Below, piece after piece: positions 19,922 through 47,456 of a stretch of DNA of 64,000 bases; within the stretch, counting starts at the first letter, position 1, and each line of letters opens with the position of its first letter. The translations under genes and the position numbers were made by a program. The DNA lies in assembly GCF_030553075.1 (NCBI RefSeq), contig NZ_CP130702.1:124001-188000 (forward strand). The letters run 5' to 3'. Source of the DNA: Halomonas sp. I5-271120 (lineage in GTDB: Bacteria; Pseudomonadota; Gammaproteobacteria; Pseudomonadales; Halomonadaceae). Below the pieces are notes generated by a model. The model saw only the letters and a list, made by a program, of their open reading frames with translations. It was not told the DNA's origin and did not search any database.

Positions 19922-19990
19922 CCCTTACGGGAGATACTCTCCCGCTAGGGATAGATGTCTCCAATTTGGGCCATTACCAAAAGGAGACAT
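19922..19990 (+). promoter_or_regulatory. Structured switch leader 1
   Basis: Hairpin CGGGAGA/TCTCCCG (19928-19934/19938-19944) with outer CCCT/AGGG. Middle arm ATGTCTCC (19955-19962) pairs with GGAGATA of the hairpin (19930-19936, 7 bp) or with GGAGACAT at the ribosome site (19983-19990, 8 bp perfect). ATG at 19994. Confidence 0.75.
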
Positions 19991-19993
19991 TTT

Positions 19994-20428
19994 ATGCTCT
20001 ATTCCCCGGAAACTATTGAGACTGCACAGGCAATCCAAAACCTAAACACAAGCTTTGCTCTGCTTGGTTTGGTGTTGATCTTTGGTCTTGTCGTCTATAG
20101 CAAGGTGCGCACCGGCAAGTCGTCCTCCGGCTCCGGTGGTGGTGGCATGAAGCTACTGTTCGCGCGTTTCTTTGCTTTCTGCTATGCCGTCCTGCGCAGC
20201 CTAAGTGGCATGCTGCGTGAGGTTATCGGCCAGCAGCATCAACTAATCGTTGCGCGTCTCGAAGCACGTAATGAGCTTCGTCGTGCCAACGAGTCTGAGT
20301 CTCAGTCCAATAGCGACATCCTCCCGGCATACGCCGGTAACTACACTCCCATTTCTGTCTTTGGCAAACCGTGGGAGCACTATGAAGAACCTGCTTTCAC
20401 CCGCAAAGGTGTGCAGCTTCGGTTCTAA
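19994..20428 (+). CDS. Hypothetical membrane protein, 144 residues
   Basis: Start at 19994 after AAGGAG. One transmembrane helix near the N-terminus (FALLGLVLIFGLVVYSKV), a Ser/Gly linker (SSSGSGGGG), a second partly hydrophobic helix (LLFARFFAFCYAVLRSL) and a charged cytoplasmic part with LIVARLEARNELRRANESE. No recognised family. It is the first gene of the leader-controlled block and carries its own switch leader. Confidence 0.7.
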   Translation: MLYSPETIETAQAIQNLNTSFALLGLVLIFGLVVYSKVRTGKSSSGSGGGGMKLLFARFFAFCYAVLRSLSGMLREVIGQQHQLIVARLEARNELRRANESESQSNSDILPAYAGNYTPISVFGKPWEHYEEPAFTRKGVQLRF

Positions 20429-20514
20429 TCGATGGGGTCCTCGTGACCCCATCCCCCGTATCCCTGAGAACGTATCCGTTCACTGCTCACCTAGGCCGTG
20501 AAGCGCATATGTTT

Positions 20515-20562
20515 TCGCCTCTTTGAGGTGATTTGCGGTCGTGGCCGCAGTAAATACCCACG
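20515..20562 (+). ncRNA. Pseudoknot element a with preceding hairpin
   Basis: Hairpin TCGCCTC/GAGGTGA (20515-20521/20525-20531) is followed by an H-type pseudoknot: stem 1 TGCGG/CCGCA (20534-20538/20545-20549), loop CGTGG (20540-20544) pairing with CCACG (20558-20562), A-rich linker between. Same plan as nine other copies but with a different loop word, compensated in the tail. Confidence 0.75.
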
Positions 20563-20595
20563 CTATTCCACTTCCGTTTCGACGGTAATTCGTAA

Positions 20596-20658
20596 CCCAG
20601 CGGGGTGTACCATCTCCCGCTGGGGGATGGTGCGCCCTCTCTATAGAGGAACACCATC
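20596..20658 (+). promoter_or_regulatory. Structured switch leader 2
   Basis: Hairpin CCCAGCGGG/CCCGCTGGG (20596-20604/20616-20624). Middle arm GATGGTGC (20626-20633) pairs with loop GTACCATC (20607-20614, 8 bp) or GATGGTG with CACCATC directly before the ATG (20652-20658, 7 bp perfect). ATG at 20659. Confidence 0.82.
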
Positions 20659-21657
20659 ATGACTAGCAAGCTACAAACCACTCAGTATGTCATTGCCGAC
20701 GCCTTCAACCTTCCCGATGCGAATCGGGCTTCGGTGATAGTGGGCTATGAAAGCTCGAGTAATCCGCTCATTCCATCAATGGACCAGCATCATCACTTTG
20801 ATCGTGATGTGCTGCGCCGCGTGCTGAACTTCCTGAACCATCCGGACGGTGACGCTCTGTACCTAACAGGGCCGACCGGATCCGGGAAGACCTCTGGCAT
20901 TGCGCAGATCCTGGCGCGGCTCTATTGGCCGATGCAGTCCATCACGGCTCATGGCCGTATGGAGTTCCAGGAGCTGGTGGGGCATCACACGCTGGTTTCC
21001 CTGCTACCAGGGGAAGAGCCGACGATGACCTTCGTGGATGGTCCGCTGACCAAGGCGATGAAGGAGGGCCACGTCCTCTTGATCAACGAAGTCGACCTGA
21101 TGGATCCGTCAGAGCTCTCAGGGCTCAATGACGTGCTCGAAGGTCGGCCGCTCGTTATCGCCGAAAACGGCGGGGAAGTGGTTCGTCCTCACCCGATGTT
21201 CCGTGTCGCTGTCACTGGCAACTCTGCTGGTGGTGGCGATGAGACCGGGGCATACCTGGGTGTGAGGCAGCAGAACATCGCTGCGATGGACCGCTACCGC
21301 GTGGTGCGAGTCGACTATCTGCCGCCTGCAGTGGAGGAACCTCTGCTGAAGGCCAAGGTGCCGGAGCTGAATGACGTTCTGGTGCCGAAGATGGTCGAGA
21401 TGGCGAACACCCTTCGTACCCTGTTCACAGGGGATGAAGAAACGGGTGCAGGAGGCGAACTTAGCTTCCCGATGTCCACTCGTGTGCTGATTCGCTGGGC
21501 TCGCCAGACGCTGGCCTATGAGTCCTGCTCCAACCGGCTGCAGTATGCCCTTGAGGAATCCCTCATGGCGCGTGCCGCACCGGAAGAGCGCATCGCGATC
21601 GAGCGTGTTGCCACCAACATCTTCGGCAAAGAAGCCTGGAACGGGGGTGCAGCATGA
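20659..21657 (+). CDS. CobS/MoxR-like AAA+ ATPase
   Basis: A 332-residue AAA+ protein: Walker A GPTGSGKT near residue 74, Walker B VLLINEVDLM near residue 141, sensor-1 region RVAVTGNSAGGGDETG, and a C-terminal helical lid. It resembles the CobS-like proteins of SXT/R391 and IncA/C elements. These are MoxR-type ATPases; despite the name no cobalt chelatase large subunit is present, so a role in cobalamin synthesis is unlikely. MoxR ATPases act with VWA-domain partners, and a CobT-like VWA protein is encoded at 27651. The stop overlaps the next start by 4 nt. Confidence 0.85.
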   Translation: MTSKLQTTQYVIADAFNLPDANRASVIVGYESSSNPLIPSMDQHHHFDRDVLRRVLNFLNHPDGDALYLTGPTGSGKTSGIAQILARLYWPMQSITAHGRMEFQELVGHHTLVSLLPGEEPTMTFVDGPLTKAMKEGHVLLINEVDLMDPSELSGLNDVLEGRPLVIAENGGEVVRPHPMFRVAVTGNSAGGGDETGAYLGVRQQNIAAMDRYRVVRVDYLPPAVEEPLLKAKVPELNDVLVPKMVEMANTLRTLFTGDEETGAGGELSFPMSTRVLIRWARQTLAYESCSNRLQYALEESLMARAAPEERIAIERVATNIFGKEAWNGGAA

Positions 21658-22535
21658 GTGATCGCAAGATGAAGGCTGATTTTCGCACCTCTGATGTATC
21701 CAGGGTGATTGAGGCTGAGCGGCTACGTCCGTTCGAATCAACCGACGAGCGCCGCAAGGTGCTCGCCTGGGTCGAGTTGCGTGATCAGCCGGGCTTACCG
21801 GAGCTCTACTTGTTCGAGGAAGATGGCAATAGCCAATTCAGGTTGGTGTCGGATGCCCAGCGTCGCTGTGGCACTCACATCTCCCTGTCTACCCTGTGTG
21901 AGCCAGCTTTCCTGCTCGAGATCGATCCACGCTTGAAGGGCTATGTGCCTGATGCTCTGCCCGAGAATTTGGAGCTTGTCTTCCTTGAGGACAGCGATGA
22001 ACCAATCCTCGCGCTAGATGTTGTCAGTCCGACCCCGAGGTTTGCCTTCCAAGCCACCCTAGGTGACATGGAGTGCGCGGACCTCGTGAAGCGCCTGGAG
22101 GCTGCTTGGTCGTCCCCATCCGTCACGACATCGGCAATGAACGATGTCTTGTCCGGAAACCATAGGGAAGCCAAGTTGGTGACTGGGCCGTTCAAGTACG
22201 GATCCATCAGATCGAGTGGCTCCCTCTCAGGGGCAGTCACGATCGAAGCAATGCTCGGTATTCCGGAAGACGCCTTCCCAACCTTGCTGTTGGCGGCGCT
22301 CTCGGTTTGCTATCCAAGCGCATTGCAGATCGAGTCCTGCCTACTCGAGCAGCCAGCAAGCACGCGGTCTGATGATCTCTGCCAGTATTTCGAAGTCCAT
22401 GCGTCTCGACTTTTCGAGGAGCGTGAATTGGCAGAGACATTCGACTCGTATGTCCGTGAGCTGGGTGGCAACACCTCGTTGCTATCCATAGTAAAAACCA
22501 TGCCATCCGCCACCGGCGTATCGGCTTACTTTTGA
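21654..22535 (+). CDS. Hypothetical protein translated with the CobS-like gene
   Basis: 293 residues, start overlapping the CobS-like stop (ATGA), which explains why this gene lacks the structured leader present at most neighbours. No recognised domain; acidic N-terminal half, a mixed alpha/beta C-terminal half. The C-terminus GVSAYF resembles the ends of the Exo and DUF3150 proteins nearby. Possibly an adaptor for the ATPase; this is inference from coupling only. Confidence 0.75.
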   Translation: MSDRKMKADFRTSDVSRVIEAERLRPFESTDERRKVLAWVELRDQPGLPELYLFEEDGNSQFRLVSDAQRRCGTHISLSTLCEPAFLLEIDPRLKGYVPDALPENLELVFLEDSDEPILALDVVSPTPRFAFQATLGDMECADLVKRLEAAWSSPSVTTSAMNDVLSGNHREAKLVTGPFKYGSIRSSGSLSGAVTIEAMLGIPEDAFPTLLLAALSVCYPSALQIESCLLEQPASTRSDDLCQYFEVHASRLFEERELAETFDSYVRELGGNTSLLSIVKTMPSATGVSAYF

Positions 22536-22593
22536 CCCTGCGAGGGCCGTTCCCTCGCGGGCGGCTCTCTATCCCACTGTTGGAGACAGAGCC
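22536..22593 (+). promoter_or_regulatory. Structured switch leader 3 (ssb)
   Basis: Hairpin GCGAGGG/CCCTCGC (22540-22546/22552-22558) with outer CCC/GGG. Middle arm GGCTCT (22563-22568) pairs with AGAGCC directly before the ATG (22588-22593, 6 bp). The alternative pairing CGGCT with GGCCG (22545-22549) is 5 bp and needs partial opening of the stem. Confidence 0.65.
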
Positions 22594-23244
22594 ATGTCAA
22601 TGTTCCATGAAGCCAAGACCATCCTCGTCGGCAACACCTCTGGTGCGGCCGAAGTCCGTTGGACCAAGGGGCAAGAGCCCAAGAAGGTCGCGAAGCTGCG
22701 CGTCGTCACCGAATACGGTGGTGGCCAGAATCGCGAACCGCACAAGGAATGGCACACCGTCATCTTGTGGGGCCACCTGGCGGATATGGCGGAGAAATTC
22801 GTCACCCGCTCCATGCAGGTCTATGTCGAGGGCAGGCCTCAGACTCGTCGCTGGATAAACAGCGAGAATCAGGAGGTCTCCATGCTTGAGGTGATCGCGA
22901 ATACCTTCAAGCCGCTCGGCTATCGGAAAGGGGATGCTAATCAGGCAGCCCAGCCCCAATCGGGGCAGGGTACAGCGCAACAAGGATATGGACCTGGGCA
23001 GGGAGCTAACGCTCCGCAACAGCCTCAGGGACAGCCTCAAGCGCCTGGCCATCAAGGTCAGCATGCCCAACCCGGGAATGCCCCGCAGCCGAACCAGGGA
23101 CAACCTGCGCCGGCCGCTCAAGGGCGTCCCCATCAACCCGCACCCGGCAATGCGCCTGCCCCCGGAAACTTCGGTGGTGGCGCTCCACAGTCCGCTGGTG
23201 CACCTGGTAACTTCGATGACTGGGACGAAGAAATTCCGTTCTGA
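22594..23244 (+). CDS. ssb: Single-stranded DNA-binding protein
   Basis: A 216-residue SSB: N-terminal OB fold (residues ~1-110; KVAKLRVVTEY, WHTVILWG, VYVEGRPQTRRW), a long Gln/Gly/Pro-rich linker and the partner-binding tail DDWDEEIPF, close to the canonical DDDIPF. It coats single-stranded DNA during transfer and recombination. It leads the ssb-bet-exo group, the arrangement of SXT/R391 and IncA/C elements. Confidence 0.95.
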   Translation: MSMFHEAKTILVGNTSGAAEVRWTKGQEPKKVAKLRVVTEYGGGQNREPHKEWHTVILWGHLADMAEKFVTRSMQVYVEGRPQTRRWINSENQEVSMLEVIANTFKPLGYRKGDANQAAQPQSGQGTAQQGYGPGQGANAPQQPQGQPQAPGHQGQHAQPGNAPQPNQGQPAPAAQGRPHQPAPGNAPAPGNFGGGAPQSAGAPGNFDDWDEEIPF

Positions 23245-24736: not shown

Positions 24737-24750
24737 TATACCGTAACGCA

Positions 24751-24817
24751 ACCCTCGTGGGGGCAAGACAGCCCCCGCGGGGGTTGTCTTGTCTCTGCTC
24801 TACGTGGAGGCAAGATA
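24751..24817 (+). promoter_or_regulatory. Structured switch leader 4 (exo)
   Basis: A 14-bp hairpin (24751-24764/24771-24784). Middle arm TGTCTTG (24785-24791) pairs with CAAGACA of the loop (24764-24770, 7 bp perfect) or with CAAGATA directly before the ATG (24811-24817, 7 bp with one G-U). The GGAGG site is 24806-24810. One of the clearest members. Confidence 0.85.
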
Positions 24818-25933
24818 ATGCGCTATGAAATCGTTCATTTAGAACAAGGCAGTAGTAAGTGGCATGCCTGGCGGAAAGAAGGTATTACCGCGACAGATGC
24901 GGTGGTGCTGGCCGGCGTGTCACCCTACAAGTCCGAGTGGCGGCTATGGGGTGAAAAGCGCGGCATCGTTGCAGAGCCGGACCTTGGGGGCAACCCTTAC
25001 GTCAGGCGAGGCAACGAGCTTGAGCCGGAAGCCCGGGATCACATGGCCGACTTCCTGTTGGAGATTGACCCCACGCCGGAGGCATACGCCGCGGCGAGGA
25101 GTCACTTCAAGGAAGCCCTCACGCCGTACTGCATCCAGATGGTGAAGTATCCCATGCTTCGTGCCAGCCTGGATGGTCTTCGCGATAACGGAGAACCGAC
25201 CGAGCTGAAAGTGCCTTCATCCCGAACCTTCGAGGATGTGGTGAAGCGCGGCCGGCAGTCGAAGGCGTATCGCTTGTACTACCCTCAGGTCCAGCATCAG
25301 ATCATGGTGACTGGTGCCGCGAGGGGGTGGCTACTGTTCTACCAGCCTGACCAAGACAGTGAGCCTGTGTGCTTTGAGATCCGTCGTGATGATGATTTCC
25401 TCAAAGCCCACATGCATCGCTGTGGGAGGTTCTACAAGAAGCTCCAAGAAGGCGATCCGCCCGTAAAGGATCACCAGAAGGACGTGTATTACCCGACCGA
25501 TGCTGATGAGGCTGAGGCCTGGTATCTACATGCTCCGGCGGCTTATCGACTGGAGAAGCAACGCCAGGCGCTGAAGCGTCAGGTCGAATCCATTGAAGAG
25601 GCCTTGAGTCACCATAAGGAGGCATTGGCCATCTGCATGGGCGACTTCAAGACTGGTGAGTTCGGAGGCGTTCGCCTGAACCGTTCCCAGAAGAAGGGAT
25701 CGGTTCAGTGGGAGCAGCTCATCGAGCAGGAGTTTGGAGAGTCTGTGACTGAGGAGATGAGAGATCGACACCGCAAGGCAACACAAGGTGGCGAAACTCG
25801 TCGTCTCACCGTGACAGAAAAGGGGATGCCGCGTGAGATCCTCGATCCAGACGCTCGCCAATGGCTTGAAGGGTGTGTCGACGAAGAAGGTTTCGTTGAT
25901 TATCCTCAGCCATCCTTGAGTGGGTATTTCTGA
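24818..25933 (+). CDS. exo: YqaJ-type exonuclease, partner of Bet
   Basis: A 371-residue alkaline-exonuclease-like protein. The N-terminal family motif WRKEGITATDAVVLAGVSPY is followed by RRGNELEPEA, the metal-binding Asp in ASLDGL (~118) and the ELK motif in PTELKVP (~129-131), then YYPQVQHQIMVTG. Such enzymes degrade one strand of double-stranded DNA and hand the rest to Bet. C-terminal coiled coil at residues ~245-290. The end is SLSGYF. A strong terminator follows, closing the recombination group. Confidence 0.92.
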   Translation: MRYEIVHLEQGSSKWHAWRKEGITATDAVVLAGVSPYKSEWRLWGEKRGIVAEPDLGGNPYVRRGNELEPEARDHMADFLLEIDPTPEAYAAARSHFKEALTPYCIQMVKYPMLRASLDGLRDNGEPTELKVPSSRTFEDVVKRGRQSKAYRLYYPQVQHQIMVTGAARGWLLFYQPDQDSEPVCFEIRRDDDFLKAHMHRCGRFYKKLQEGDPPVKDHQKDVYYPTDADEAEAWYLHAPAAYRLEKQRQALKRQVESIEEALSHHKEALAICMGDFKTGEFGGVRLNRSQKKGSVQWEQLIEQEFGESVTEEMRDRHRKATQGGETRRLTVTEKGMPREILDPDARQWLEGCVDEEGFVDYPQPSLSGYF

Positions 25934-26382: not shown

Positions 26383-26415
26383 CTATACCTATCTCGCGTC
26401 ATCTCATGACGCATA

Positions 26416-26478
26416 ACCCTGCGGGGGCATACTAGCCCCTTCGGGGTCGTGTATGCCCCCGTTTTTTTGGAGGCATAC
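26416..26478 (+). promoter_or_regulatory. Structured switch leader 5 with terminator-like alternative fold
   Basis: Hairpin A: ACCC/GGGT (26416-26419/26444-26447) and GGGGC/GCCCC (26424-26428/26435-26439), loop ATACTA. Middle arm GTATGC (26451-26456) can pair with GCATAC at the ATG (26473-26478), or extend to an 11-bp stem GTATGCCCCCG (26451-26461) with CGGGGGCATAC (26422-26432) followed by seven T (26462-26468). The second fold is a perfect intrinsic terminator that destroys hairpin A. Confidence 0.85.
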
Positions 26479-27576
26479 ATGACTGCAACCGTTCTGGATC
26501 AGATGGCCATCGTCCACGTCGATTTCGACATCTGGACTGGTAAGGCCCGTCTAACCGCAAAGGACCTTCGGCTAGGTGACGATGGTGAAATTCCGCCGTC
26601 TTCTCTGGCTACCCTGGGATCAAAGAATGTCTGCGATCCCAAGCTTCTGAGATCGTTTGCTGCCATCAAGCAGCGTATGGCTCGCTACATGGAGGGCGTT
26701 GGTATGCGCTTCATGAGTGGCTATGCTCTGCCGATCAAGCGTCTCGATGAAGTTAACAAAGAGCTCAACCTGCTTCAGGGCGAGTTCTACCAAGCCCGCG
26801 ATGCGTTTCTGCAATCGTATGACAACGCCGTGCAAGACTGGTGTGACGCTAACCCTGAATGGGCCGACATCATTCGTGATGGGGTCCTATCCCGTGACCG
26901 TGTCGCTGACCGGCTAGGGATGAGCTGGGAAGCATTCCAGATCACCAATGGTGACGTTCAAGCGAGCGGAACCCACGGTGTTGAGAACAAGGCTCGTGCT
27001 CTGGGTGGCGATCTCCTCCAGGAGGTCATCGACACCGCTGCTGAGACCTACTCGACTCATCTGTCCAAGCCTCACTTTCATGTCAGCTTCCGCGTGCGCA
27101 AGCCGCTGAAGACGATGAGGGATAAGGTGGATGGTCTGTCGTTCCTCGATAGCCGCTTCAAACGTCTCGTTCAGCTGATGGATGAGGCGCTGCATTTCCT
27201 CCCCGAGGATAGCAAGGAGCCGGTGCATGGAGAGGGCTACTTCCGCATCAGTGCGGTAGTGCAGATCCTGGCGGATGAAGGGAAGGTTGAAGACTTCGTG
27301 AAGGGTTCCACCTCGGTGGACGATGTCGCGAAGCAGCTCGAGAGCAAGGCCCCGGCCGATGCGTCGAAAGCCAAGTCCAAGAAACAGGGCAAGGCCAAGC
27401 CGCAGGAGCAGGCGCCTGATCTACTCGAAGAGCCCTCCGACGCTGAAATGCCCGACCTGGATGAGCTCCTGGCCGGCCTCGATGAGGTGCTCGACCACGA
27501 CTCCGATGAGTCTCCGAGCGTATTTCAGGCTGAAGAGTCGGCTGCAGCGCCTTCAAGGGGCAGCAGCTACTTCTGA
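26479..27576 (+). CDS. DUF3150 protein
   Basis: 365 residues from ATG 26479. It matches the DUF3150 proteins that accompany CobS-like and CobT-like genes in SXT/IncA/C elements: N-terminal MAIVHVDFDIWTGKARLTAKDL, then helical blocks (RRLDEVNKELNLLQGEFYQARDAF-type) to residue ~270 and an acidic, Lys/Ala-rich tail. The C-terminus GSSYF repeats the ending pattern seen in Exo and the 21654 protein. Function unknown; probably works with the adjacent CobT-like protein. Confidence 0.82.
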   Translation: MTATVLDQMAIVHVDFDIWTGKARLTAKDLRLGDDGEIPPSSLATLGSKNVCDPKLLRSFAAIKQRMARYMEGVGMRFMSGYALPIKRLDEVNKELNLLQGEFYQARDAFLQSYDNAVQDWCDANPEWADIIRDGVLSRDRVADRLGMSWEAFQITNGDVQASGTHGVENKARALGGDLLQEVIDTAAETYSTHLSKPHFHVSFRVRKPLKTMRDKVDGLSFLDSRFKRLVQLMDEALHFLPEDSKEPVHGEGYFRISAVVQILADEGKVEDFVKGSTSVDDVAKQLESKAPADASKAKSKKQGKAKPQEQAPDLLEEPSDAEMPDLDELLAGLDEVLDHDSDESPSVFQAEESAAAPSRGSSYF

Positions 27577-27591
27577 CGCATTTCCTACCCA

Positions 27592-27650
27592 CCCTCAAGG
27601 GACACCGACTCCCTTGATGGGGCTGGTGTCCCTCCATTTGGAGATACACC
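27592..27650 (+). promoter_or_regulatory. Structured switch leader 6 (CobT-like)
   Basis: Hairpin TCAAGGG/CCCTTGA (27595-27601/27611-27617) with outer CCC/GGG. Middle arm GGTGTCCC (27625-27632) pairs with GGGACACC (27599-27606, 8 bp) or forms GGTGT..CTCC with GGAG..ACACC at the ribosome site (27640-27650, 9 bp with an internal loop). Confidence 0.8.
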
Positions 27651-29750: not shown

Positions 29751-29763
29751 TACTTCATAACTC

Positions 29764-38086: not shown

Positions 38087-38599
38087 ATGGGGGTAGCTGC
38101 AAGCACTGATGTGATGGAAGGTCGTCAGTATCGAGACTTTCCCGATCACGCCTGGCTACAGGCAGAGCTGGAGCATGGTGATGAGATTGATCAGCTAATG
38201 CTTGAGGAGGCGGCAAAGCTGGCATGTGAGCGCAACGACGCTTGGCATGCCATCTTGCAGGCCTGCGACGGCGACCTGATCGGTGTTGAGCTGCAACAGA
38301 AGCGACTGGCGCAATATGCGCTGATTCTTCCTGATGCCAGCGAGCCCGGCAGGTATCGAGCACAGCTCTTTGACGCCAAGGGGTTCTTCGGGCACTTCAC
38401 CCGAGACGAGCCCATGGAAGTGCTCGAGGCTCTGGTCGGCGAAGGCTATGTCTCCCTGGCGACAGGGCGGCTATCTGAGCTGAGCCAAACATCCGAGTGG
38501 ATGCGAGGCACCAGGATCACCAATCTCATCGCTGAGCTTAACCAGGGGCGAATTACGCATTCCGAGCTGTTGGCATCCATGGCAGCCGCGGGCGCGTAA
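38087..38599 (+). CDS. Hypothetical protein, 170 residues
   Basis: Start at 38087 after AAGGAGG. Helical: HAWLQAELEHGDEIDQLMLEEAAKLACER and EVLEALVGEGYVSLATGRLSEL are amphipathic. No known domain and no membrane segment. Confidence 0.65.
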   Translation: MGVAASTDVMEGRQYRDFPDHAWLQAELEHGDEIDQLMLEEAAKLACERNDAWHAILQACDGDLIGVELQQKRLAQYALILPDASEPGRYRAQLFDAKGFFGHFTRDEPMEVLEALVGEGYVSLATGRLSELSQTSEWMRGTRITNLIAELNQGRITHSELLASMAAAGA

Positions 38600-38646
38600 C
38601 GATCCTCAAGGAGGCAATGCCTCCGCATGACGGGCGAATGCCCATT

Positions 38647-38704
38647 CCCTACGGGTGAGTCTTCCCGTCAGGGGAGGCTCTTCCCTCAATCTAAGGAGAG
38701 CATC
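38647..38704 (+). promoter_or_regulatory. Structured switch leader 18
   Basis: Hairpin CCCT/AGGG with CGGG/CCCG (38647-38673). Middle arm AGGCTC (38675-38680) pairs with loop GAGTCT (38657-38662, 6 bp), or GCTCTTC (38677-38683) with GGAGAGC at the ribosome site (38695-38701, 7 bp). Confidence 0.8.
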
Positions 38705-38914
38705 ATGTTCGATTTCATCGTGTTGTACTGGTCCCAGGCAAGCCGCCCGACAGATCCCCCCGAGGGTTATCAATGTCGAGCGCCTCATGCTGGCGCGGCA
38801 ATGCGGCTAACACGGCTATATAGCCCAGGCTGCAGCATCGCGTCCGTTGCCAAGACCAATGAATGGGAAGTCGCCTACAGCGACTTCTGGGGTGATAGCA
38901 GCATCGCTGCCTGA
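38705..38914 (+). CDS. Small hypothetical protein, 69 residues
   Basis: Start at ATG 38705 after AAGGAG. Contains a short hydrophobic start (FDFIVLYW) and two cysteines; no known motif. The leader with a full switch pattern is the main support that this is a real gene. Confidence 0.6.
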   Translation: MFDFIVLYWSQASRPTDPPEGYQCRAPHAGAAMRLTRLYSPGCSIASVAKTNEWEVAYSDFWGDSSIAA

Positions 38915-38930
38915 TCATCCGTAACACTTA

Positions 38931-38999
38931 ACCCATCTGGGGCCACATCCGCCCCAGTGGGGGGAGGGTGTGGCCTTTTCTATAGCAAGGAGAAGGTCT
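38931..38999 (+). promoter_or_regulatory. Structured switch leader 19 (cytosine methylase)
   Basis: Hairpin GGGGC/GCCCC core (38939-38943/38951-38955) with outer CCCA/TGGG. Middle arm GGGTGTGGCC (38966-38975) pairs with GGCCACATCC (38941-38950, 10 bp, one G-U); overlapping GGCCTTTTC (38972-38980) pairs with GAGAAGGTC at the ribosome site (38990-38998, 9 bp). Strongest case for mutually exclusive folds. Confidence 0.88.
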
Positions 39000-41349: not shown

Positions 41350-41396
41350 CTATACGACCGATCGGCCACACCTACCTTGGTAAGGCCATAACTCTG

Positions 41397-41460
41397 CCCA
41401 GCGGGCGCTATCCCGCTGGGGTGGCGTACGTCCGGGCTACTTCCCGAAGGAGCAAGGCGT
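41397..41460 (+). promoter_or_regulatory. Structured switch leader 21
   Basis: Hairpin CCCAGCGGG/CCCGCTGGG (41397-41405/41412-41420). Middle arm GTGGCG (41421-41426) pairs with the loop CGCTAT (41406-41411, 6 bp), or TACGTC (41427-41432) with GGCGTA (41456-41461), which includes the first base of the ATG. Confidence 0.75.
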
Positions 41461-41718
41461 ATGACCACGAATGCTGATCCTCAAAACAACCGCCTCATCA
41501 CCTCACAGCATCCGGCTGTGCTAGGCGAGAAGGTTGCGTTCGATGACCCGGACGACGCGGTATCGACAGGCCTCTATGAGGTAGTCGGTGTACCTGCGCT
41601 AGATCCGAACGAGTTGGAGGCGCTGGGTAATGCCGGCTATTCCGATCTGGTTCTCGATCTCAGCAACGGATCGAGCTTTGTCGAGGCTTACCCGGGTGAT
41701 CTACGTCGGGTGGCTTGA
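41461..41718 (+). CDS. Hypothetical protein, 85 residues
   Basis: Start at 41461. Acidic; TGLYEVVGVPALDPNELEALG and YSDLVLDLSNGSSFVEAYPGDL suggest a small beta-rich domain of the KOW/SH3-like size, but no family is recognised. Confidence 0.6.
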   Translation: MTTNADPQNNRLITSQHPAVLGEKVAFDDPDDAVSTGLYEVVGVPALDPNELEALGNAGYSDLVLDLSNGSSFVEAYPGDLRRVA

Positions 41719-41767
41719 TTCAGACGTAATCCATAAACCGGGTACGAAGCAGTACCCATAAACCTGT

Positions 41768-41827
41768 CCAGCGGGCCCTATCCCGCTGGGGGATGGTGCC
41801 TGTTGGTTATTTGACCTGGAGGTCACC
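41768..41827 (+). promoter_or_regulatory. Structured switch leader 22
   Basis: Hairpin CCAGCGGG/CCCGCTGG (41768-41775/41782-41789). Middle arm GATGG (41792-41796) pairs with CCTATC (41778-41782), or ATGGTG (41793-41798) with CACCAT (41824-41829), which contains the start codon. Preceded by GGGTAC/GTACCC (about 41740-41757). Confidence 0.75.
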
Positions 41828-43717
41828 ATGAATAATGCCATCAATGCCATTCCGTCAGTCGAGATCGCACAAGGCCCACAGCATGAGTATGCCGGGCACT
41901 TCGCTGGTCTAGTTGAGAAGGCCGAACCCGCCATTCACAGGATCGGTGAGCTAATCGATGAGGGCTACACCCTCAGCTGTGCGTGCAGCTTCGGCAAGGA
42001 CAGCAGCGTTGTGCTGGTGCTCATGCTCGAGGCGATCCGTCGCCGGGTAGAGGCGGGGCTATATGTCCCTACCTGCTACGTCTCGCACAGCAACACCGAG
42101 GTGGAAAACCCTGCCATGGATGTCTACACGAATGCGCAGATCGTAGATCTTCAGGCGTACTGTGAACGTCACCACCTGCCGGTGGAGGTCGTCTATGTCA
42201 CGCCGTCGCTATCGTCGTCATTCACCTATGCGACCATAGGTCGGGGGAAGCTACCGATCTTCGCTGGTGCCTCTCGTGCGTGCTCGATCGACTGGAAGCT
42301 GCGCCCGCAGCAGAAAGCGCTCAAGCACATTCTCTCGACCCTGCAGAACCCGGGTGACCTTGTCACGCTACTTGGTACTCGCTTCTCGGAGTCGACCGTT
42401 CGCGGTGGGAATATGCGTGGTCGCGGTGATGGTGGCATGGCGCTTGTACCGACAGACTCGGGCGGCTACACCTGCGCGGTCATCGCCGACTGGGAGCTAA
42501 CCGATGTCTGGGAGATGCTCGTTGCCTGTGATGAGAAACGACAGGGCCCCTACCGGACCTATGTCAGTGATTTCTCATGGTGTCTTGAGCTATACAAAGA
42601 TGCCAATGAGGGAATGTGCTCCATCATTACCGGAGATGGCGGCAATCGTGCGGCTTGCGGGTCTCGCCACGGCTGCATGACCTGTTGTGCTACTGGCGAT
42701 CGCGACAAGAGCATGGAGTCGATGATCGCCTCCGGGCCTAGCAAGCATGGCCACCTGGAAGGCATCAATCAGTTCCGCAACTTCCTTATCCAGACACGCT
42801 GGGACATGTCTCGGCGTGAGATCCTGGGGCGGAAGGTGTCCAAGGCCGGCTATTTTGGCGTGGCACCGACCAACTACTCGGCAGAGATGCGTCGCGACAT
42901 GCTGCGCTACCTGCTGACCCTGGATGTTCTGGAAGAGGAGAGGGCGGAAGAGCATGATGCTGCCATGTTCCGCGGCGACGTTAGTGATGAGGGCCTTGAG
43001 ATGATACAGAGCCTGCGAGGGCCGACGTATCAGGTCATCACACCCAAGAAGCTGCTTGCCATAGAGTTCGCCTGGTCGCTCAGCCATGGCTTCGATCACG
43101 CCTTCCCGGCGCTGTCGATATGGTATGAGATCCGTGTCTTGGGCGAACGCTACCCGATTCCGCCCATGGACACGGTACAGAAGGCGGGGGTGCCCAGCAT
43201 GTGCTGGTTCAAGATCCCCGAGGGTGAAGGTCCGGCTCACGAAGCTGGCCTGCAGGATGCCCTCATCGCCAAGTCAAACCTGTCGCAGTATCCCGAGCGT
43301 CCGCCGATGCGGACCGTGCGGGATCGCTACGAAGGCAAGCCGAGGCAGATCGTCTACTACGAGGAAGCTGATGAGATGGAGGTCGATGCGGCCGAGGCCA
43401 CGCTGTTTGTCGAAGCTTTCGATGAAGAGCGCTACCTTGCGTCCAAGTCGTTTCGCTCCTGGGAGAGTGCCAAAATCTTGCTGAATCATGGCCTGGTGAC
43501 ACTGGGTCGTGGCAAGGCGAGTGATTACGATGAGCTGGCGCGTCGTGCCCAGTATTGGGACCGGCTCCAGCAACGTCTGGGCACTCAGGGCCTCGAGGAG
43601 TACCTGCAGGAGCAGTCGATCAGCGATGCTGATCACAACCGGCTTCTGGAGGAGCTCGAGCAGCAGCAGGAGGAATCCGAGCCCCAAGCCGGCCAGGTTA
43701 TTGACCTGTTCGGCTAA
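41828..43717 (+). CDS. PAPS-reductase/DndC-like PP-loop protein
   Basis: 629 residues. The ATP-pyrophosphatase PP-loop SFGKDSS lies at ~54-60, followed by the strand-loop CYVSHSNTEVENP and the second half of the fold with SIDWKLRPQQKAL. A cysteine cluster (RAACGSRHGCMTCCATGD, ~275-292) could hold an iron-sulfur cluster as in DndC. A large C-terminal extension has no known domain. DndC takes part in DNA phosphorothioation, but dndA, B, D and E are absent here. Similar stand-alone genes occur on IncA/C-type elements. A nucleic-acid thiolation or anti-restriction role is possible but unproven. Confidence 0.8.
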   Translation: MNNAINAIPSVEIAQGPQHEYAGHFAGLVEKAEPAIHRIGELIDEGYTLSCACSFGKDSSVVLVLMLEAIRRRVEAGLYVPTCYVSHSNTEVENPAMDVYTNAQIVDLQAYCERHHLPVEVVYVTPSLSSSFTYATIGRGKLPIFAGASRACSIDWKLRPQQKALKHILSTLQNPGDLVTLLGTRFSESTVRGGNMRGRGDGGMALVPTDSGGYTCAVIADWELTDVWEMLVACDEKRQGPYRTYVSDFSWCLELYKDANEGMCSIITGDGGNRAACGSRHGCMTCCATGDRDKSMESMIASGPSKHGHLEGINQFRNFLIQTRWDMSRREILGRKVSKAGYFGVAPTNYSAEMRRDMLRYLLTLDVLEEERAEEHDAAMFRGDVSDEGLEMIQSLRGPTYQVITPKKLLAIEFAWSLSHGFDHAFPALSIWYEIRVLGERYPIPPMDTVQKAGVPSMCWFKIPEGEGPAHEAGLQDALIAKSNLSQYPERPPMRTVRDRYEGKPRQIVYYEEADEMEVDAAEATLFVEAFDEERYLASKSFRSWESAKILLNHGLVTLGRGKASDYDELARRAQYWDRLQQRLGTQGLEEYLQEQSISDADHNRLLEELEQQQEESEPQAGQVIDLFG

Positions 43718-44052: not shown

Positions 44053-44096
44053 CTATACCTTTCCGGCTGCGTCTTTGATGACAACGCCATAATCTG

Positions 44097-44160
44097 CCCA
44101 GCGGGCGTTATCCCCGCTGGGGACGACGTGCGCCTGGGTTCCGACCTATGGAGCATGACT
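44097..44160 (+). promoter_or_regulatory. Structured leader 23
   Basis: Hairpin CCCAGCGGG/CCCGCTGGG (44097-44105/44113-44121), same stem as leader 21. GACG (44122-44125) can pair with loop CGTT (44106-44109); GTGC (44128-44131) with GCAT (44153-44156) next to GGAG. Both pairings are only 4 bp. Confidence 0.55.
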
Positions 44161-45078
44161 ATGACTACTATCGCCGCAATCCTTCCGCGCCCGATGGCGA
44201 AGATCGGCAACCGCGCTGTAATGCTGTCTCCGTTGGCCCTTGCCAGCGTGAATCAGCTTTCAGTGCTTACCCAGCACTCCCTGATCACGAAGCTACTCAC
44301 CATTGAGGCTCCTGAACCTTGCGCAGAGTCGCAGGCCTTCACGGGACTGATATTGGTGACGCTTCGTACGCGCTTTCATAACCAAGTGAGCCGTGACGCC
44401 CAGCAGCAAGCCTTCAGTGATGTCTCTGAAGCGCTGGACTTCACGAGACACTGGGCCATAGAGCGTCTGTGCGAATACTTCGCCGGCCTTTGTGGGTCCG
44501 ATCTGACAGCTGGATCCGAAGACATGGATGACCTGGTCGAGATCCTGGGCCATGCCCGGGAGGTCTCCGGGGAATTCATCGAGGAGCGGCTGGTCGAGAT
44601 TGGCCATTCCTCCGATGCGGGTCAGATCGATCCCATCATGGAATTCCTGCTGAGCTGGACAGCCTCTCTCGATGCTATCGATACGATCGATTTCATCGCG
44701 TCGGTGTTCTCCTATCTTGAGTCCAATGCCGTCGTAGAGAGCAGTGCTGTCATTTCGCCTGTCATGGTGGATGCGAAGCATGCGCCAAGCTACACGACAC
44801 GTTCGCCCTCTCGTGAGACCGCACAACGGGCGGTGGAAGTGCTGAGCAACTATCAAGCAGAAGTCTCCGATGATAACCCGGAGCTCGCTGCTGAGATCGA
44901 TCGGCTGTGTGGTGAGCTGAACGCGTCGTCTGACGGTTCCGAATCCCGATCCGAGGCCGACAAGGCGCTGGACAGGATGCAGGAGCTGTTAGATGGCAAG
45001 GAATGGGAGCCTGAGCACCTGGCCATGATTGCGGACATGATTCGCTTTACTGGCCGGGAAGTGCGTGACATCGACTGA
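44161..45078 (+). CDS. Hypothetical protein, 305 residues
   Basis: Start at ATG 44161, 7 nt after GGAG; the ATG at 44155 is too close. Helical, acidic protein (DFTRHWAIERLCEYFAGLCGSDL; FLLSWTASLDAIDTIDFIASVFSYL), with the C-terminal third charged. No membrane segment or known domain. Confidence 0.65.
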   Translation: MTTIAAILPRPMAKIGNRAVMLSPLALASVNQLSVLTQHSLITKLLTIEAPEPCAESQAFTGLILVTLRTRFHNQVSRDAQQQAFSDVSEALDFTRHWAIERLCEYFAGLCGSDLTAGSEDMDDLVEILGHAREVSGEFIEERLVEIGHSSDAGQIDPIMEFLLSWTASLDAIDTIDFIASVFSYLESNAVVESSAVISPVMVDAKHAPSYTTRSPSRETAQRAVEVLSNYQAEVSDDNPELAAEIDRLCGELNASSDGSESRSEADKALDRMQELLDGKEWEPEHLAMIADMIRFTGREVRDID

Positions 45079-45151
45079 GCTCGATCGGCGTATTCTTGCC
45101 TGACAGGTAGGAAATGCTGACTCTTACCAACGCGCCTCTAACGGGCGCACA

Positions 45152-45214
45152 ACCCCACGGGGCGCACTGATGCCCTATGGGTGTCGTGCGTCCCGATACC
45201 TAGAGGTACGCAAC
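45152..45214 (+). promoter_or_regulatory. Structured switch leader 24
   Basis: Hairpin ACCC/GGGT with GGGC/GCCC (45152-45182). Middle arm GTGCG (45186-45190) pairs with CGCAC (45163-45167), or TGCGT (45187-45191) with ACGCA before the ATG (45208-45212). Both perfect 5 bp. Confidence 0.75.
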
Positions 45215-45694
45215 ATGAGCAAGAACCATAACTGCCTAGAAGGCATCGCCTGCCCGAAGTGCAAGCAAGAGGATGTGTTCTCCATCGTCACTACGTGCAA
45301 AGCACTAGTCCATGATGATGGCATCGAGGGAACCAATAGGCACGAATGGAATAGCAATGCTTCGATCACCTGCCGAGAGTGCATGTACTCGGGCACGGTC
45401 GCGGAGTTCAGCGGGGTTCCCGCTGCGCCGGTCATTCCGGAAGAGCGCATGGGAGTGCTAAGCACCGCCCACGTCAGCTATGAGGAGTCACTGTTGATCC
45501 CGGTGCTGCTTGCCAGCGGTGCGCTGATTGGCATGGAGCGTGAAGAGGGATGGCTGGTCCACACCTCGAAACCCCATGACGATGCACCTAACCTGGCCTA
45601 CATCCAGGGTTACATGCAGAGCAAAGGGTTTCAGTGGATCCTCTTCGACAGAGACGCTTCTGGAGTTGAGGTTTTTTCCACCTTTGACTGGTAA
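45215..45694 (+). CDS. Zinc-ribbon protein, 159 residues
   Basis: Start at 45215, 9 nt after AGAGG. Residues ~12-60 carry two cysteine pairs, CPKC and CREC, a probable zinc ribbon. The C-terminal half (LIGMEREEGWLVHTSKPHDD, FQWILFDRDASGVEVF) looks like a small alpha/beta fold. Unknown function; possibly nucleic-acid binding. Confidence 0.68.
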   Translation: MSKNHNCLEGIACPKCKQEDVFSIVTTCKALVHDDGIEGTNRHEWNSNASITCRECMYSGTVAEFSGVPAAPVIPEERMGVLSTAHVSYEESLLIPVLLASGALIGMEREEGWLVHTSKPHDDAPNLAYIQGYMQSKGFQWILFDRDASGVEVFSTFDW

Positions 45695-45711
45695 CGACTA
45701 GACCCATCAAA

Positions 45712-45773
45712 CCCTAACAGGGCCATACCGCCCTGTGGGGGGGGATGGCCCGTCAACTGAAGGAGCCATACCG
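45712..45773 (+). promoter_or_regulatory. Structured switch leader 25 with identical loop and start words
   Basis: Hairpin ACAGGGC/GCCCTGT (45717-45723/45730-45736) with outer CCC/GGG. The 9-nt word GCCATACCG occurs at the loop (45722-45730) and again directly before the ATG (45765-45773). The middle arm ATGGCCC (45745-45751) pairs with GGGCCAT (7 bp), or ATGGC with GCCAT at the start (5 bp plus two). Confidence 0.85.
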
Positions 45774-45959
45774 ATGATGGAAGATAAGATGTTACAAGCC
45801 ATGCAGGCCATGCGTTCACAGGGATATGCCGTCGCTCTTTGGTCCCCCGAAGAGATCGCGGATTCCTGCCTGGATCGGCGTGAATTTGAAGAGCAGGTTC
45901 ACATCGAGGGCAATCGTCTCCTATGGGATAACCCGGCTGACGAAGACGATAGCGACTGA
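45774..45959 (+). CDS. Small hypothetical protein, 61 residues
   Basis: Starts ATGATG at 45774 after AAGGAG. Helical and acidic with C-terminal ADEDDSD. No known family; supported by the full switch leader. Confidence 0.6.
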   Translation: MMEDKMLQAMQAMRSQGYAVALWSPEEIADSCLDRREFEEQVHIEGNRLLWDNPADEDDSD

Positions 45960-45990
45960 CTTACCTCGCCGCTGCTGGCGCTAAATACTA

Positions 45991-46052
45991 CCCCCTGGGG
46001 CACTCCACCCCTAGGGGGATGGTTGTGCCCCGTAAACAGAAAGGACACGACC
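45991..46052 (+). promoter_or_regulatory. Structured switch leader 26
   Basis: Hairpin GGGG/CCCC with outer CCCCC/GGGGG (45991-46018), loop CACTCCA. Middle arm GTGCCCC (46025-46031) pairs with GGGGCAC (45997-46003, 7 bp perfect), or ATGGTTGTG (46019-46027) with CACGACCAT (46046-46054, 9 bp, one G-U), covering the start codon. Confidence 0.85.
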
Positions 46053-46619
46053 ATGAGCAACGATACACTGAACGCTACCCCGACCCTGGATCAGCAGAAT
46101 TCGTCACAGCCGACACGCAAAGTCGACTTCACTCTACGGGCGCTCACTGCAGTAGAGATGACGGTGACAGCGGATGTGCCGCTGGATGCCGACGATGAGC
46201 AGCTGTTCAAGATCGCCTCGCAGCTGTACAGCAATTGCGATGGCTCAGAGTTCGTAGATGATGGTGTCACCTTCGATGAGGGTACTCACGACTGGAGTGA
46301 AAACGAGGGCGCTCAGTCGAGCATCCTGGAATTCACCTTCAAGCTGGACCCCATGGGATGTGCTGCGCACGGCTGCTTCTTCGAGCTGGTCGCTGACATG
46401 AGCTATTTTCTTCACCACCGCCTCATCGAAAGGACTGAAGTGCGATCAACGCATGCGGACAAGCGCCAAATCTGCGTCGTTGCCTTCTTGCATCACTCCG
46501 TCACGGAGACCGAGGCTCAAGAGATCTCCTCTTCTTTGGCCTTCGAGTTCCTCGAAGTGGGGAACGATGAGGAGTTGGCCGCGGAGTTGTTGGATGTGAG
46601 CTTCCCAAGCTGGTGCTAA
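46053..46619 (+). CDS. Hypothetical protein, 188 residues
   Basis: Start at 46053. N-terminal Thr/Gln-rich 25 residues then a beta-rich part (VDFTLRALTAVEMTVTADVPL) and an amphipathic C-terminus. It has FKLDPMGCAAHGCFFEL with paired cysteines. Not recognised. Confidence 0.65.
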   Translation: MSNDTLNATPTLDQQNSSQPTRKVDFTLRALTAVEMTVTADVPLDADDEQLFKIASQLYSNCDGSEFVDDGVTFDEGTHDWSENEGAQSSILEFTFKLDPMGCAAHGCFFELVADMSYFLHHRLIERTEVRSTHADKRQICVVAFLHHSVTETEAQEISSSLAFEFLEVGNDEELAAELLDVSFPSWC

Positions 46620-46943: not shown

Positions 46944-46974
46944 GGTGGTCCGAGCCACCCGAAAAGCAACTCGG
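46944..46974 (+). ncRNA. Pseudoknot element g1
   Basis: Stem GGTGG/CCACC (46944-46948/46955-46959), loop CCGAG (46950-46954) pairing with CTCGG (46970-46974), linker CGAAAAGCAA. First of a tandem pair in a 323-nt gene-free stretch. Confidence 0.8.
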
Positions 46975-47046
46975 CCATACCGTTTGACCCTACTAAGAGA
47001 CTCTAATGTCATACGCACCCCAGAAGTGCGTGTATGACTTTATAGT

Positions 47047-47096
47047 TTCTGCTCCTTGTGAGCTGAATAGTGGCTCGGGCCACTCAAAATATCCCG
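47047..47096 (+). ncRNA. Pseudoknot element g2 with preceding hairpin
   Basis: Hairpin TTCtGCTC/GAGCtGAA (47047-47054/47060-47067), then pseudoknot stem AGTGG/CCACT (47069-47073/47080-47084), loop CGGG (47076-47079) pairing with CCCG (47093-47096). Between g1 and g2 is a 13-bp-scale stem GTCATACGCAC/GTGCGTGTATGAC. Confidence 0.75.
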
Positions 47097-47150
47097 CTTT
47101 TGCACTCTTCCTTTGCTCTTCTGTCTTGCGCAGATGCTTGGATACCACCC

Positions 47151-47196
47151 CTCAGGGCTATACCGCCTTGAGCGGTGCCCTTGTAAGGAGCAAGTA
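47151..47196 (+). promoter_or_regulatory. Structured leader 28
   Basis: Hairpin CTCAGGGC/GCCTTGAG (47151-47158/47165-47172, one G-U). GGTG/GCCC (47174-47180) can pair with parts of the loop and stem; CTTG (47180-47183) with CAAG after the GGAG site (47191-47194). Pairings are short. Confidence 0.5.
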
Positions 47197-47364
47197 ATGA
47201 AACTTGGAACCATTTCCCGTTTAACATATCGTGCCGGCCTCGTTGAGCCAGGCACTTATGAAATTGTGAAGTTCCTTGATGATAACGGTAACGTTGTCGT
47301 GAAAAATGTGATGACTGGCGTTAATTCTGTGATTAACACATCTCATCTCAAAACTGATCGGTAA
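47197..47364 (+). CDS. Small hypothetical protein, 55 residues
   Basis: Start at 47197, 6 nt after AAGGAG. Small beta-rich protein (YEIVKFLDDNGNVVVKN) of SH3/KOW-like size. No known family. Confidence 0.6.
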   Translation: MKLGTISRLTYRAGLVEPGTYEIVKFLDDNGNVVVKNVMTGVNSVINTSHLKTDR

Positions 47365-47387
47365 GAGGACTTTCCGATGAGCTTTAA

Positions 47388-47456
47388 CCCTGCGGGGGCA
47401 ATCTAGCCCCTTAGGGGATAGTTGCCTCCGAATTTTAACTATCTATGGAGGCAATT
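47388..47456 (+). promoter_or_regulatory. Structured switch leader 29
   Basis: Hairpin GGGGC/GCCCC (47395-47399/47406-47410) with CCCT/AGGG. GTTGCC (47421-47426) pairs with the GGCAAT loop word (47397-47402), or AGTTGCCTCC (47420-47429) with GGAGGCAATT (47447-47456, 10 bp, one G-U). The stem is nearly identical to leader 5 but the words differ (GCATAC there, GCAATY here) and remain complementary. Confidence 0.87.

Follow-up and report, generated by a model that had tools for sequence, protein, structure and literature searches.

The window considered here is a stretch of 64,000 nucleotides from contig NZ_CP130702.1 of Halomonas sp. I5-271120, part of a conjugative plasmid. Between 19.9 and 47.5 kb it carries a block of genes in which most + strand starts are preceded by a leader of about 80 nt. 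The block holds ssb, bet, exo and methylases together with many genes without a known role. Its first gene (19994) encodes a small protein with a hydrophobic N-terminal part, the product of 20659 is an AAA_5/MoxR-type ATPase, and that of 29826 gives an N6_N4_Mtase match below the Pfam cut-off. From 29 to 48 kb, promoter-like sites are below the shuffled mean (6 versus 8.9) and terminator-like sites above it (26 versus 14.2).

Four segments follow one another in each leader: A, B, M and S. A and B form a GC hairpin (H1), A being its loop together with the top of its 5′ arm; M is a middle word, separated from the upper stem by a median of 8 nt; and S covers the ribosome site and start. Over 31 starts taken together, M is gene-specifically complementary both to its own A (A:M) and to its own S (M:S). 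The words quoted in an earlier note on this DNA are present at the genes it named, such as 20659 and 24818, as are the 12 bp at 35558; the long alternatives it gave before 39000 were found and measured here as 12 and 10 bp. Leaders along the block are the following.

Leader of 19994, 19914..19996, + strand: A GGAGATA / M TGTCTCC; M:S 10 bp; predicted switch
Leader of 20659, 20579..20661, + strand: A ACCATC (20609-20614), M GATGGT (20626-20631), S ACCATC (20653-20658)
Leader of 22594 (SSB), 22514..22596, + strand: A GAGGGCCG / M CGGCTCTC; GGCTCT / AGAGCC
Leader of 24818 (YqaJ exonuclease), 24738..24820, + strand: CAAGACA (24764-24770), TGTCTTG (24785-24791), CAAGATA (24811-24817)
Leader of 26479 (DUF3150), 26399..26481, + strand: A GGGGGCATAC (26423-26432), M GTATGCCCCC (26451-26460), S GGCATAC (26472-26478)
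Leader of 27651 (VWA/CobT_C), 27571..27653, + strand: A AGGGACACCG / M TGGTGTCCCT; TGGTGT / ACACCA
Leader of 29826, 29746..29828, + strand: A GGGGCT / M AGCCCC; ATATGCAGC / GCTGCATAT
Leader of 30787, 30707..30789, + strand: GAGGGGAC / GTCCCCTC; GGTAGTC / GACTGCC
Leader of 31230, 31150..31232, + strand: in the duplex listing and the ATG scan
Leader of 32188, 32108..32190, + strand: TCGGGGACT / AGTCCCTGG; GTCCCT / AGGGAC
Leader of 32744, 32664..32746, + strand: GGGGGCTC / GAGTCCCC
Leader of 33334, 33254..33336, + strand: GGGGCACTTCG / CGGAGTGTCTC; GTGTCTCTTGT / ACAGGAGATAC
Leader of 35558, 35478..35560, + strand: GGGACGTATCTG / CAGGTGTGTCTC; 12 bp each way
Leader of 38087, 38007..38089, + strand: A:M strong; predicted full-length fold without M:S
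Leader of 38705, 38625..38707, + strand: passes the joint shuffle test; duplexes listed
Leader of 39000 (C5 cytosine methylase), 38920..39002, + strand: A GGGGCCACATCC (38939-38950), M GGGTGTGGCCTT (38966-38977), S GGAGAAGGTC (38989-38998)
Leader of 41461, 41381..41463, + strand: in the duplex listing and the ATG scan
Leader of 41828 (629 aa, no Pfam match), 41748..41830, + strand: in the duplex listing
Leader of 44161, 44081..44163, + strand: passes the joint shuffle test
Leader of 45215, 45135..45217, + strand: GGGGCGCAC / GTGCGTCCC; TGCGT / ACGCA
Leader of 45774, 45694..45776, + strand: GCCATACCG in both loop and start
Leader of 46053, 45973..46055, + strand: TGGGGCAC / GTGCCCCG; ATGGTTGTG / CACGACCAT; helices strong, joint shuffle test failed
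Leader of 47457, 47377..47459, + strand: GGGGGCAAT / GTTGCCTCC; M:S 13 bp

The window sample comprised 31 hand-chosen starts, 21654 being omitted as a coupled start. For these, the own A-M duplex reaches −11.6 kcal/mol versus −8.0 with permuted words and the own M-S duplex −12.7 versus −8.8 kcal/mol, and in neither case is the own value matched by any of 5000 word permutations. A joint test with dinucleotide shuffles of M is passed by 22 of the 31 leaders and failed by nine (23336, 26000, 34271, 36065, 37706, 40919, 46053, 46760, 47197); the separate shuffle tests at 0.05 are passed by 12/31 (A-M) and 15/31 (M-S), and both together by only 6/31. Both helices are strong in 21/31 leaders, at least three M bases being common to the two in 19 of these 21. 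The dual complementarity claimed earlier for 17-18 of 28 leaders was about right, and in the 22 leaders that pass the joint test it exceeds what shuffled M words give. When 2344 ATGs of the two strands were scanned with thresholds fixed after the leaders had been inspected, 15 qualified as full predicted switches. Of these, 12 belong to the 31 starts and represent 11 genes (31230/31233 counting as one); the other 3 lie elsewhere. A looser step, with two strong helices and the hairpin, retained 53 ATGs, 18 at starts and 35 elsewhere, so that pairing strength alone is unspecific. Chance or composition as the source of the pairing is rejected by permutations, shuffles and scan.

By permutation within plasmids the design was found again on several plasmids, IncC and IncA among them; L018 and L020, two relatives without it, are the control plasmids. 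In the relatives, part of the annotated + strand genes was used, namely those in and around the block with an upstream gap of at least 45 nt; of 228 leaders, the 6 lacking a usable hairpin were dropped and 222 kept. The hairpin was bounded in the final permutation runs and is still misassigned in a few leaders (IncC bet). The joint shuffle test is passed by 23/31 IncC leaders. For orthologs of 8 genes (70 leaders, including the doubtful annotated starts of L014 ssb and of L014 and L017 moxR), none of 5000 permutations reaches the own A-M or own M-S value; the words change and the pairing is retained, the gain being smallest for toprim and ssb. Covariation, the kind of support named in the earlier note, was not confirmed among close orthologs: A:M and M:S have no double changes, and the changed cells kept (28/38 for A:M, 20/33 for M:S, 28/54 for H1, the last with three double changes) resemble slid controls (0.70, 0.67 and 0.49, respectively), in a count with few changes from which 5 rows below 70% identity and groups without both helices were dropped.

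In the window itself, the leader of the RecT gene (23336) does not show the design. In the IncC bet leader (L013 16371) the arrangement of hairpin, M and S can be recognized by eye; this leader failed the automated tests, in which its A:M hairpin was mistaken for H1. Searched with the MoxR protein, the contigs yielded six loci, at 30-37% identity, and a MoxR-type search of a phage collection gave, among the best ten of 598 matches, one genomic island and besides it ATPases at 31-32%. No SXT copy is among the matches listed, the best 60 of 3208 E. coli records, which are two plasmid matches at 99.9-100% and otherwise chromosomal bet over 4-12% of the query.

Both states of a switch, with an open nascent A:M fold and a closed complete leader, are predicted for 16/31 window leaders. 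The control consisted of chimeras in which a native leader was given the hairpins of other leaders, M and S coming from one leader. Predicted switches in native leaders and chimeras, respectively, amount to 16/31 and 6% in the window, 16/31 and 5% in IncC, 10/16 and 7% in L010, 10/18 and 4% in L011, 7/24 and 5% in L014, 6/22 and 2% in L017, 6/12 and 6% in L019, 14/32 and 4% in L021, 16/35 and 5% in L023, 7/24 and 5% in L025, 9/22 and 7% in L026, 6/25 and 6% in L027, 2/20 and 4% in L016, and 1/15 and 1% in L015; the control plasmids have 0/18 (L018) and 0/15 (L020). H1 together with M:S is present in the predicted full-length optimum of 24/31 window and 21/31 IncC leaders, and of 7/18 and 4/15 on the control plasmids. 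This closed fold is equally frequent in chimeras (78%) and native window leaders because M and S share one leader there, so that the specificity of the prediction lies in its A:M half alone. The nascent A:M optimum is missing in 13/31 window leaders. The predicted cost of freeing S is about the same in native leaders as in chimeras (7.7 vs 7.9 in the window, 7.4 vs 7.9 in IncC, 8.8 vs 8.2 in L010), so A:M brings no clear gain at equilibrium. In these models the equal cost would favour kinetics or an outside input; A:M could also never matter in the finished RNA. An RNA thermometer is disfavoured: between 37°C and 42°C the median opening cost predicted for 22 window leaders falls from 8.4 to 7.2.

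By computation, A:M and M:S are gene specific, overlap on M, pair in the manner of RNA, and recur across plasmids. On balance, each leader probably acts as a cis-acting translational switch whose segments A-B-M-S have a closed ground state and an open alternative reached via A:M. In the finished leader A would pair with B as H1 and M:S would hide the ribosome site; in the alternative state M would pair with A, B would be looped out, and S would be free. The loop may serve as a toehold, with strand exchange completing the opening. Fold prediction suggests that A:M is the nascent optimum as long as S has not been transcribed, and the closed form the optimum afterwards. The best guess for what opens the switch is a co-transcriptional timer, by which the start would be open on freshly made mRNA only; an activator-driven block would then be translated in bursts and old message would go silent. 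More tentatively, the block may possess an operon-wide set of orthogonal strand-exchange timers, each cistron being translatable only while the message is fresh. If this is true, protein output would track bursts of transcription, such as those immediately following activator induction or arrival in a new cell, and would stop without mRNA degradation; because the words vary by gene, leaders on one long transcript would avoid cross-pairing.

The earlier note had proposed a toggle between a closed start and an H-type pseudoknot in which the loop pairs with M and the hairpin stays intact. In six pooled loci (142 leaders) the loop alone is gene specific for M (z 7.2), and the spacing between upper stem and M would permit a pseudoknot. 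However, the top five bases of the 5′ arm pair contiguously with M as well (z 8.0), which an intact hairpin would forbid; arm plus loop give z 17.4, the next five arm bases z 0.2, and the 3′ arm z −1.7, the own arm beating the mean of other arms in 101/142 leaders and being worse in 36/142. Since A:M takes in these five bases, it would displace the hairpin top, and strand exchange between nested hairpins therefore appears likelier from the sequences than a loop-only pseudoknot, an improbable open state. What stands of the proposed toggle is a set of gene-specific, mutually exclusive pairings able to close or free the start, with at least three M bases common to both helices in 73/82 strong leaders of the six loci. 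Hairpins in single-stranded plasmid DNA, acting as a promoter, replication or recombination site, would suit GC hairpins on a conjugative plasmid, but such a DNA-level element is very improbable. A:M has 162 G.U pairs to 33 A.C, a large excess such as RNA requires, and M:S a smaller one (108 to 63); at each gene the partner of M is the ribosome site; and of the 15 predicted switches of the ATG scan, 13 fall within the block on its + strand, 12 of them at chosen gene starts. The earlier claim of selected RNA structure is supported by this G.U excess, the permutations, the ortholog pairing, and the fold predictions.

The same two structures might also be flipped in all leaders by a trans-acting factor or ligand through the common GC hairpin, candidates being an RNA chaperone, a plasmid protein, a small RNA, or a metabolite. 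This reading, conceivable if doubtful, would suit a common frame with differing words: among 87 CCC-anchored leaders, roughly three quarters have AA ahead of the initial CCC, and G-rich arm bases beneath the loop are their second common trait. It would also fit an opening that, in the models, equilibrium alone does not favour, and a large SXT recombination-system operon that starts at the SetCD-activated s089 according to PMC4344509. Against it, the loops vary and no common unpaired core or aptamer was seen on comparing the 87 leaders; nor was a candidate RNA-binding protein found in the window or relatives scanned, where the block's first gene has no Pfam family over the cut-off. It is unlikely that A:M is a folding guide or by-product and the leader a fixed brake giving low translation per gene. 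A closed full-length optimum in 24/31 window leaders and an opening cost not lowered by A:M would suit such a brake, but A:M and M:S are kept with about equal strength, orthologs included, and a by-product would need less. There is also little probability in translational coupling, by which a ribosome finishing the upstream gene would disturb H1 and open the next start. H1 starts no more than 30 nt from the upstream stop in 10/21 window, 12/23 IncC, 6/11 L010 and 9/14 L011 leaders, but at least 100 nt from it in 5/21, 10/23, 3/11 and 5/14, respectively, and these distances disfavour coupling as a general input.

IncA/C plasmids, important carriers of drug resistance, share the design. If the switch family spans the block, RNA levels there say little about protein, the published bet attenuator gains a wider frame, and each plasmid offers as many as about 20 natural versions of a single bistable RNA design; related plasmids without the design could serve as controls.

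Among known systems, translational riboswitches have a sequestor/antisequestor logic, which M:S and A:M match, but the present leaders have no common aptamer seen and no Rfam match. Against Rfam release 15 the window has no match that reaches the gathering score, the six found with E-values allowed up to 5 all scoring lower, and in four relatives only group II introns on L023 were matched, the leaders remaining unmatched. Attenuators of the erm/cat type mask or expose the ribosome site through alternative hairpins, as proposed here; their alternative joins segments 2:3, in contrast to 1:3 in these leaders. Leader-peptide attenuation of this type is rejected, as an ATG leader ORF of at least 5 codons with a GGA-type site occurs in 0/22, 1/23, 0/12 and 0/15 leaders of four sets, counted over −85..−1 in leaders passing the joint shuffle test; with or without such a site, ATG ORFs occur in 4/22, 2/23, 3/12 and 4/15. 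The MS2 maturation-gene leader is a single cloverleaf of an RNA phage and is not known to have a repeated three-word design. The timing logic proposed here has a parallel in it, as a transient fold permits translation before the closed cloverleaf forms, and in the hok and aapA3 type I toxin mRNAs metastable pairing during transcription governs access to the ribosome site (both from PMC6733600); in these toxin mRNAs the transient fold closes the site or guides closure, whereas the transient fold predicted here is open.

The nearest relative is the bet attenuator of SXT/R391 ICEs. A passage in PMC4542580, citing Garriss et al. 2013, reports that bet of SXT is preceded by a strong translational attenuator, a leader that reduces the translation of this highly transcribed gene and is said to occur in IncA/C plasmids as well. 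On this description it is very likely that one member of the leader family is already in print, and the SXT attenuator may be identical with the IncC bet leader. The earlier note, which knew of no described family of this design, agrees with Rfam and needs qualifying for this attenuator. In the literature searched, with few subscription journals covered, no description was found of such leaders before at least 20 genes, or of the A word. As described in PMC4542580, the bet attenuator concerns one gene; here such leaders stand before many genes (22/31 in the window and 23/31 in IncC passing the joint test), each with its own words and with the A word in addition.

The leaders are a real, selected, widespread and gene-specific family, and they most likely act as translational switches. 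When the segment from -85 to +9 of each start was folded, most starts of the window presented a GC hairpin (H1), then a second hairpin of a middle word (M) with the ribosome site or start (S). Each leader was cut into A (five bases of the H1 5′ arm plus the loop), M and S. For A-M as for M-S, a leader's own words form better duplexes than words taken from the plasmid's other leaders, and none of 5000 permutations equalled the own words in either pairing, which bears out the gene-specific dual complementarity of M described in the earlier note. For A and S, which are not expected to pair, the excess is slight: z is -2.0 in the window and reaches -3.8 in the related locus L011. The note's comparison with shuffled sequence also favors the design: with M shuffled, joint p is ≤0.05 in 22 of the 31 window leaders, though just 6 pass both single tests. 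Of the 15 switches predicted in a scan of all 2344 window ATGs, 12 belong to the 31 starts chosen; judged by the looser pairing step alone, 18 ATGs pass at these starts and 35 elsewhere in the window. No leader matched an Rfam family, in line with the note, which knew of none with this design.

The words appear to have evolved together. Eight genes (70 leaders of the window and its relatives) were used in a swap test, in which the words of a gene were exchanged between its orthologs on different plasmids. Pairing is stronger with own words than with those of orthologs, both for A-M (-11.4 versus -8.6 swapped; 0/5000) and for M-S (-11.3 versus -8.8; 0/5000), with the least gain for toprim and ssb; thus, word changes at a given gene have left its pairing intact. 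For close orthologs the usual covariation count is uninformative: no double changes occur among 38 changed cells of A:M (28 kept; slid controls keep 0.70) or 33 of M:S (20 kept; controls 0.67). By eye, M G->A and S C->T change together between L013 (IncC plasmid) 29860 and both L021 36270 and L026 (Edwardsiella plasmid) 27495, a case missed by the helix definition. In the best own helices of six loci, G.U pairs outnumber A.C in A:M (162 versus 33) and in M:S (108 versus 63). Allowing G.U raises z from 12.1 to 18.3 for A:M and from 12.0 to 14.3 for M:S, the values with A.C allowed being 10.9 and 12.1. Since G.U here is A.C on the opposite strand, the pairing agrees with sense-strand RNA, and does so best in A:M.

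Two exclusive states would make up the switch: A:B plus M:S, where B is the 3′ arm of H1, and A:M. The earlier note had proposed a loop-M pseudoknot as the open state. In the 103 of 201 leaders whose helices are strong, the median length of A:M is 9 bp, and the H1 5′ arm supplies five of these. In 142 leaders of six loci, the top five bases of this arm are by themselves gene-specific to M (z 8.0), and arm plus loop reaches z 17.4; the next five arm bases (z 0.2) and the 3′ arm (z -1.7) have no gene-specific complementarity to M. Set against the average for the arms of other leaders, the own arm is better in 101 of these leaders and worse in 36. A:M would therefore exclude the top of H1, and strand exchange is more likely than a loop-only pseudoknot as the open state; a partial loop-M pseudoknot may be an intermediate. 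Of 82 strong leaders, 73 have at least three M bases common to A:M and M:S.

Before S is made, A:M is part of the predicted optimum in 18 of 31 window leaders versus 9% of chimeras, which are leaders bearing the hairpins of others. With S present, it is H1 plus M:S in 24 of 31 and in 78% of chimeras, which keep the closed fold because each takes M and S together from a single leader. Both predicted states occur together in 16 of 31 window leaders versus 6% of chimeras. These predicted folds are what a co-transcriptional timer would need, and it is such a timer that we infer: A:M would form before S exists, to be followed by H1 plus M:S once S is made. Against the timer stands the predicted cost of opening: to free S is no cheaper for native leaders than for chimeras, so that the gain, if any, would be kinetic or come from an outside factor. 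Upstream translation was also considered; it cannot be the general input, because at least 100 nt separate H1 from the upstream stop in 5 of 21 leaders of the window and 10 of 23 of IncC.

The same tests were applied to annotated starts of relatives. Both pairings are strong in Aeromonas pAsa4c, Vibrio YMD68, IncC pNDM-1_Dok01, Alcaligenes pGZAF1, Pseudoalteromonas, IncA pRA1, Vibrio alfacsensis, Comamonas, Edwardsiella and Halomonas KO116, and partial in Marinobacter (A-M z -3.0, M-S z -0.1), P. putida pDK1 (-1.3, -2.7) and Azotobacter (-2.3, -4.2). The design is absent from Providencia pPROV278 and Salmonella pSA20083039 (joint test 3/18 and 1/15), two plasmids that bear the same recombination and VWA genes. 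In single loci of the window's class or order, inspected by eye, it is seen at two starts in L031 and one each in L028 and L030, is doubtful in L032 and is not visible in L008 and L009. The Edwardsiella MoxR leader (L026 14365) is by eye closer to the leader at 30152 of the same plasmid than to relatives' MoxR leaders, as if leaders could pass between genes as modules.

The window, bases 124001-188000 of contig C2 in a two-contig genome, is taken to be the accessory block of a conjugative plasmid of IncA/C-like type. A TraU gene (about 13.8-14.7 kb; Pfam match) is followed by a long ORF (14754-17585), given as traN from its position alone. From 19.9 kb on, the block encodes SSB, RecT, YqaJ exonuclease, an AAA_5/MoxR-type ATPase, DUF3150, a VWA/CobT_C protein, a Toprim primase-like protein, a cytosine methylase and a probable DNA methylase (match below cut-off). 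Among the 30 matches listed, MoxR-type relatives have 54-55% identity and belong to MOBH/MPF_F plasmids of Aeromonas, Vibrio and the IncC group, with gene order much alike. Within the VWA gene, direct repeats at 28430-28700 give an acidic D/S-rich stretch (by eye). The first gene of the block encodes a small protein whose N-terminal part is hydrophobic and whose C-terminal part has the motif P-[TA]-x-x-R-[KQR]1-2-G (motif start 20381). Such a protein also opens the block on eight leader-bearing relatives (L010, L011, L013, L014, L017, L025, L026, L027); the motif was not found in L015, L016, L018, L019, L020 and L031, the last of which says little because L031 is a short fragment.

A second RNA element, an H-type pseudoknot whose third loop is A-rich, occurs in ten copies on the + strand, in gaps upstream of leaders 20659, 26479, 32188, 35558, 41461, 44161 and 47197. 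In the IncC plasmid L013, a repeated gap element, GTGCGATAGCTGGTCGCC AAAAACAAA CAGC and variants, was found by eye and looks like its counterpart.

Repeated elements in the gaps (window copies by start)
20533, + strand, pseudoknot
26353, + strand, pseudoknot
32067, + strand, pseudoknot
35293, + strand, pseudoknot
35432, + strand, pseudoknot
41321, + strand, pseudoknot
43892, + strand, pseudoknot
44025, + strand, pseudoknot (added by eye)
46943, + strand, pseudoknot
47069, + strand, pseudoknot
L013 13579-13797, IncC gap element (by eye)
L013 18434-18632, IncC gap element (by eye)
L013 22189-22452, IncC gap element (by eye)
L013 26676-26866, IncC gap element (by eye)
L013 30415-30646, IncC gap element (by eye)
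L013 36708-37165, IncC gap element (by eye)

In the pseudoknot copies, 98% of cells are paired and 18 are changed on both sides. Their covariation is 0.553 versus 0.217 shuffled and at most 0.118 slid, the copies having been picked partly by this pairing; the number of pair types is no higher than in shuffles, the descriptor gives 21 matches in the window versus 17 in shuffled sequence, and the repeats have no match in Rfam. Directly before copy 35293 lies a strong terminator-like hairpin (35217-35259; 20 pairs, T tail), and between the two, by eye, a promoter-like TTGTTT-N17-TATGAT; similar words precede 43892 and 46943. Of these promoter-like words, the promoter scan, whose total is not above shuffles, listed just TTGACC at 46906.

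A literature search, with most subscription journals outside its scope, found no published account of leaders of this kind as a family, and the parts consulted of PMC4207636, PMC3915882, PMC4790341 and PMC5890775 hold nothing on them. One member is very likely already in print, as the translational attenuator before bet of SXT (Garriss et al. 2013, via a passage in PMC4542580). Inspection by eye shows the layout in the IncC bet leader, which fails the automated test because the script took the A:M hairpin as H1; on folding, the window RecT leader lacks the layout. Another attenuator, before floR, is described in a passage of PMC5890775. In the phage MS2, according to PMC6733600, a transient structure lets translation occur before the cloverleaf forms, and the proposed timer would resemble it in having a transient fold before the closed one.
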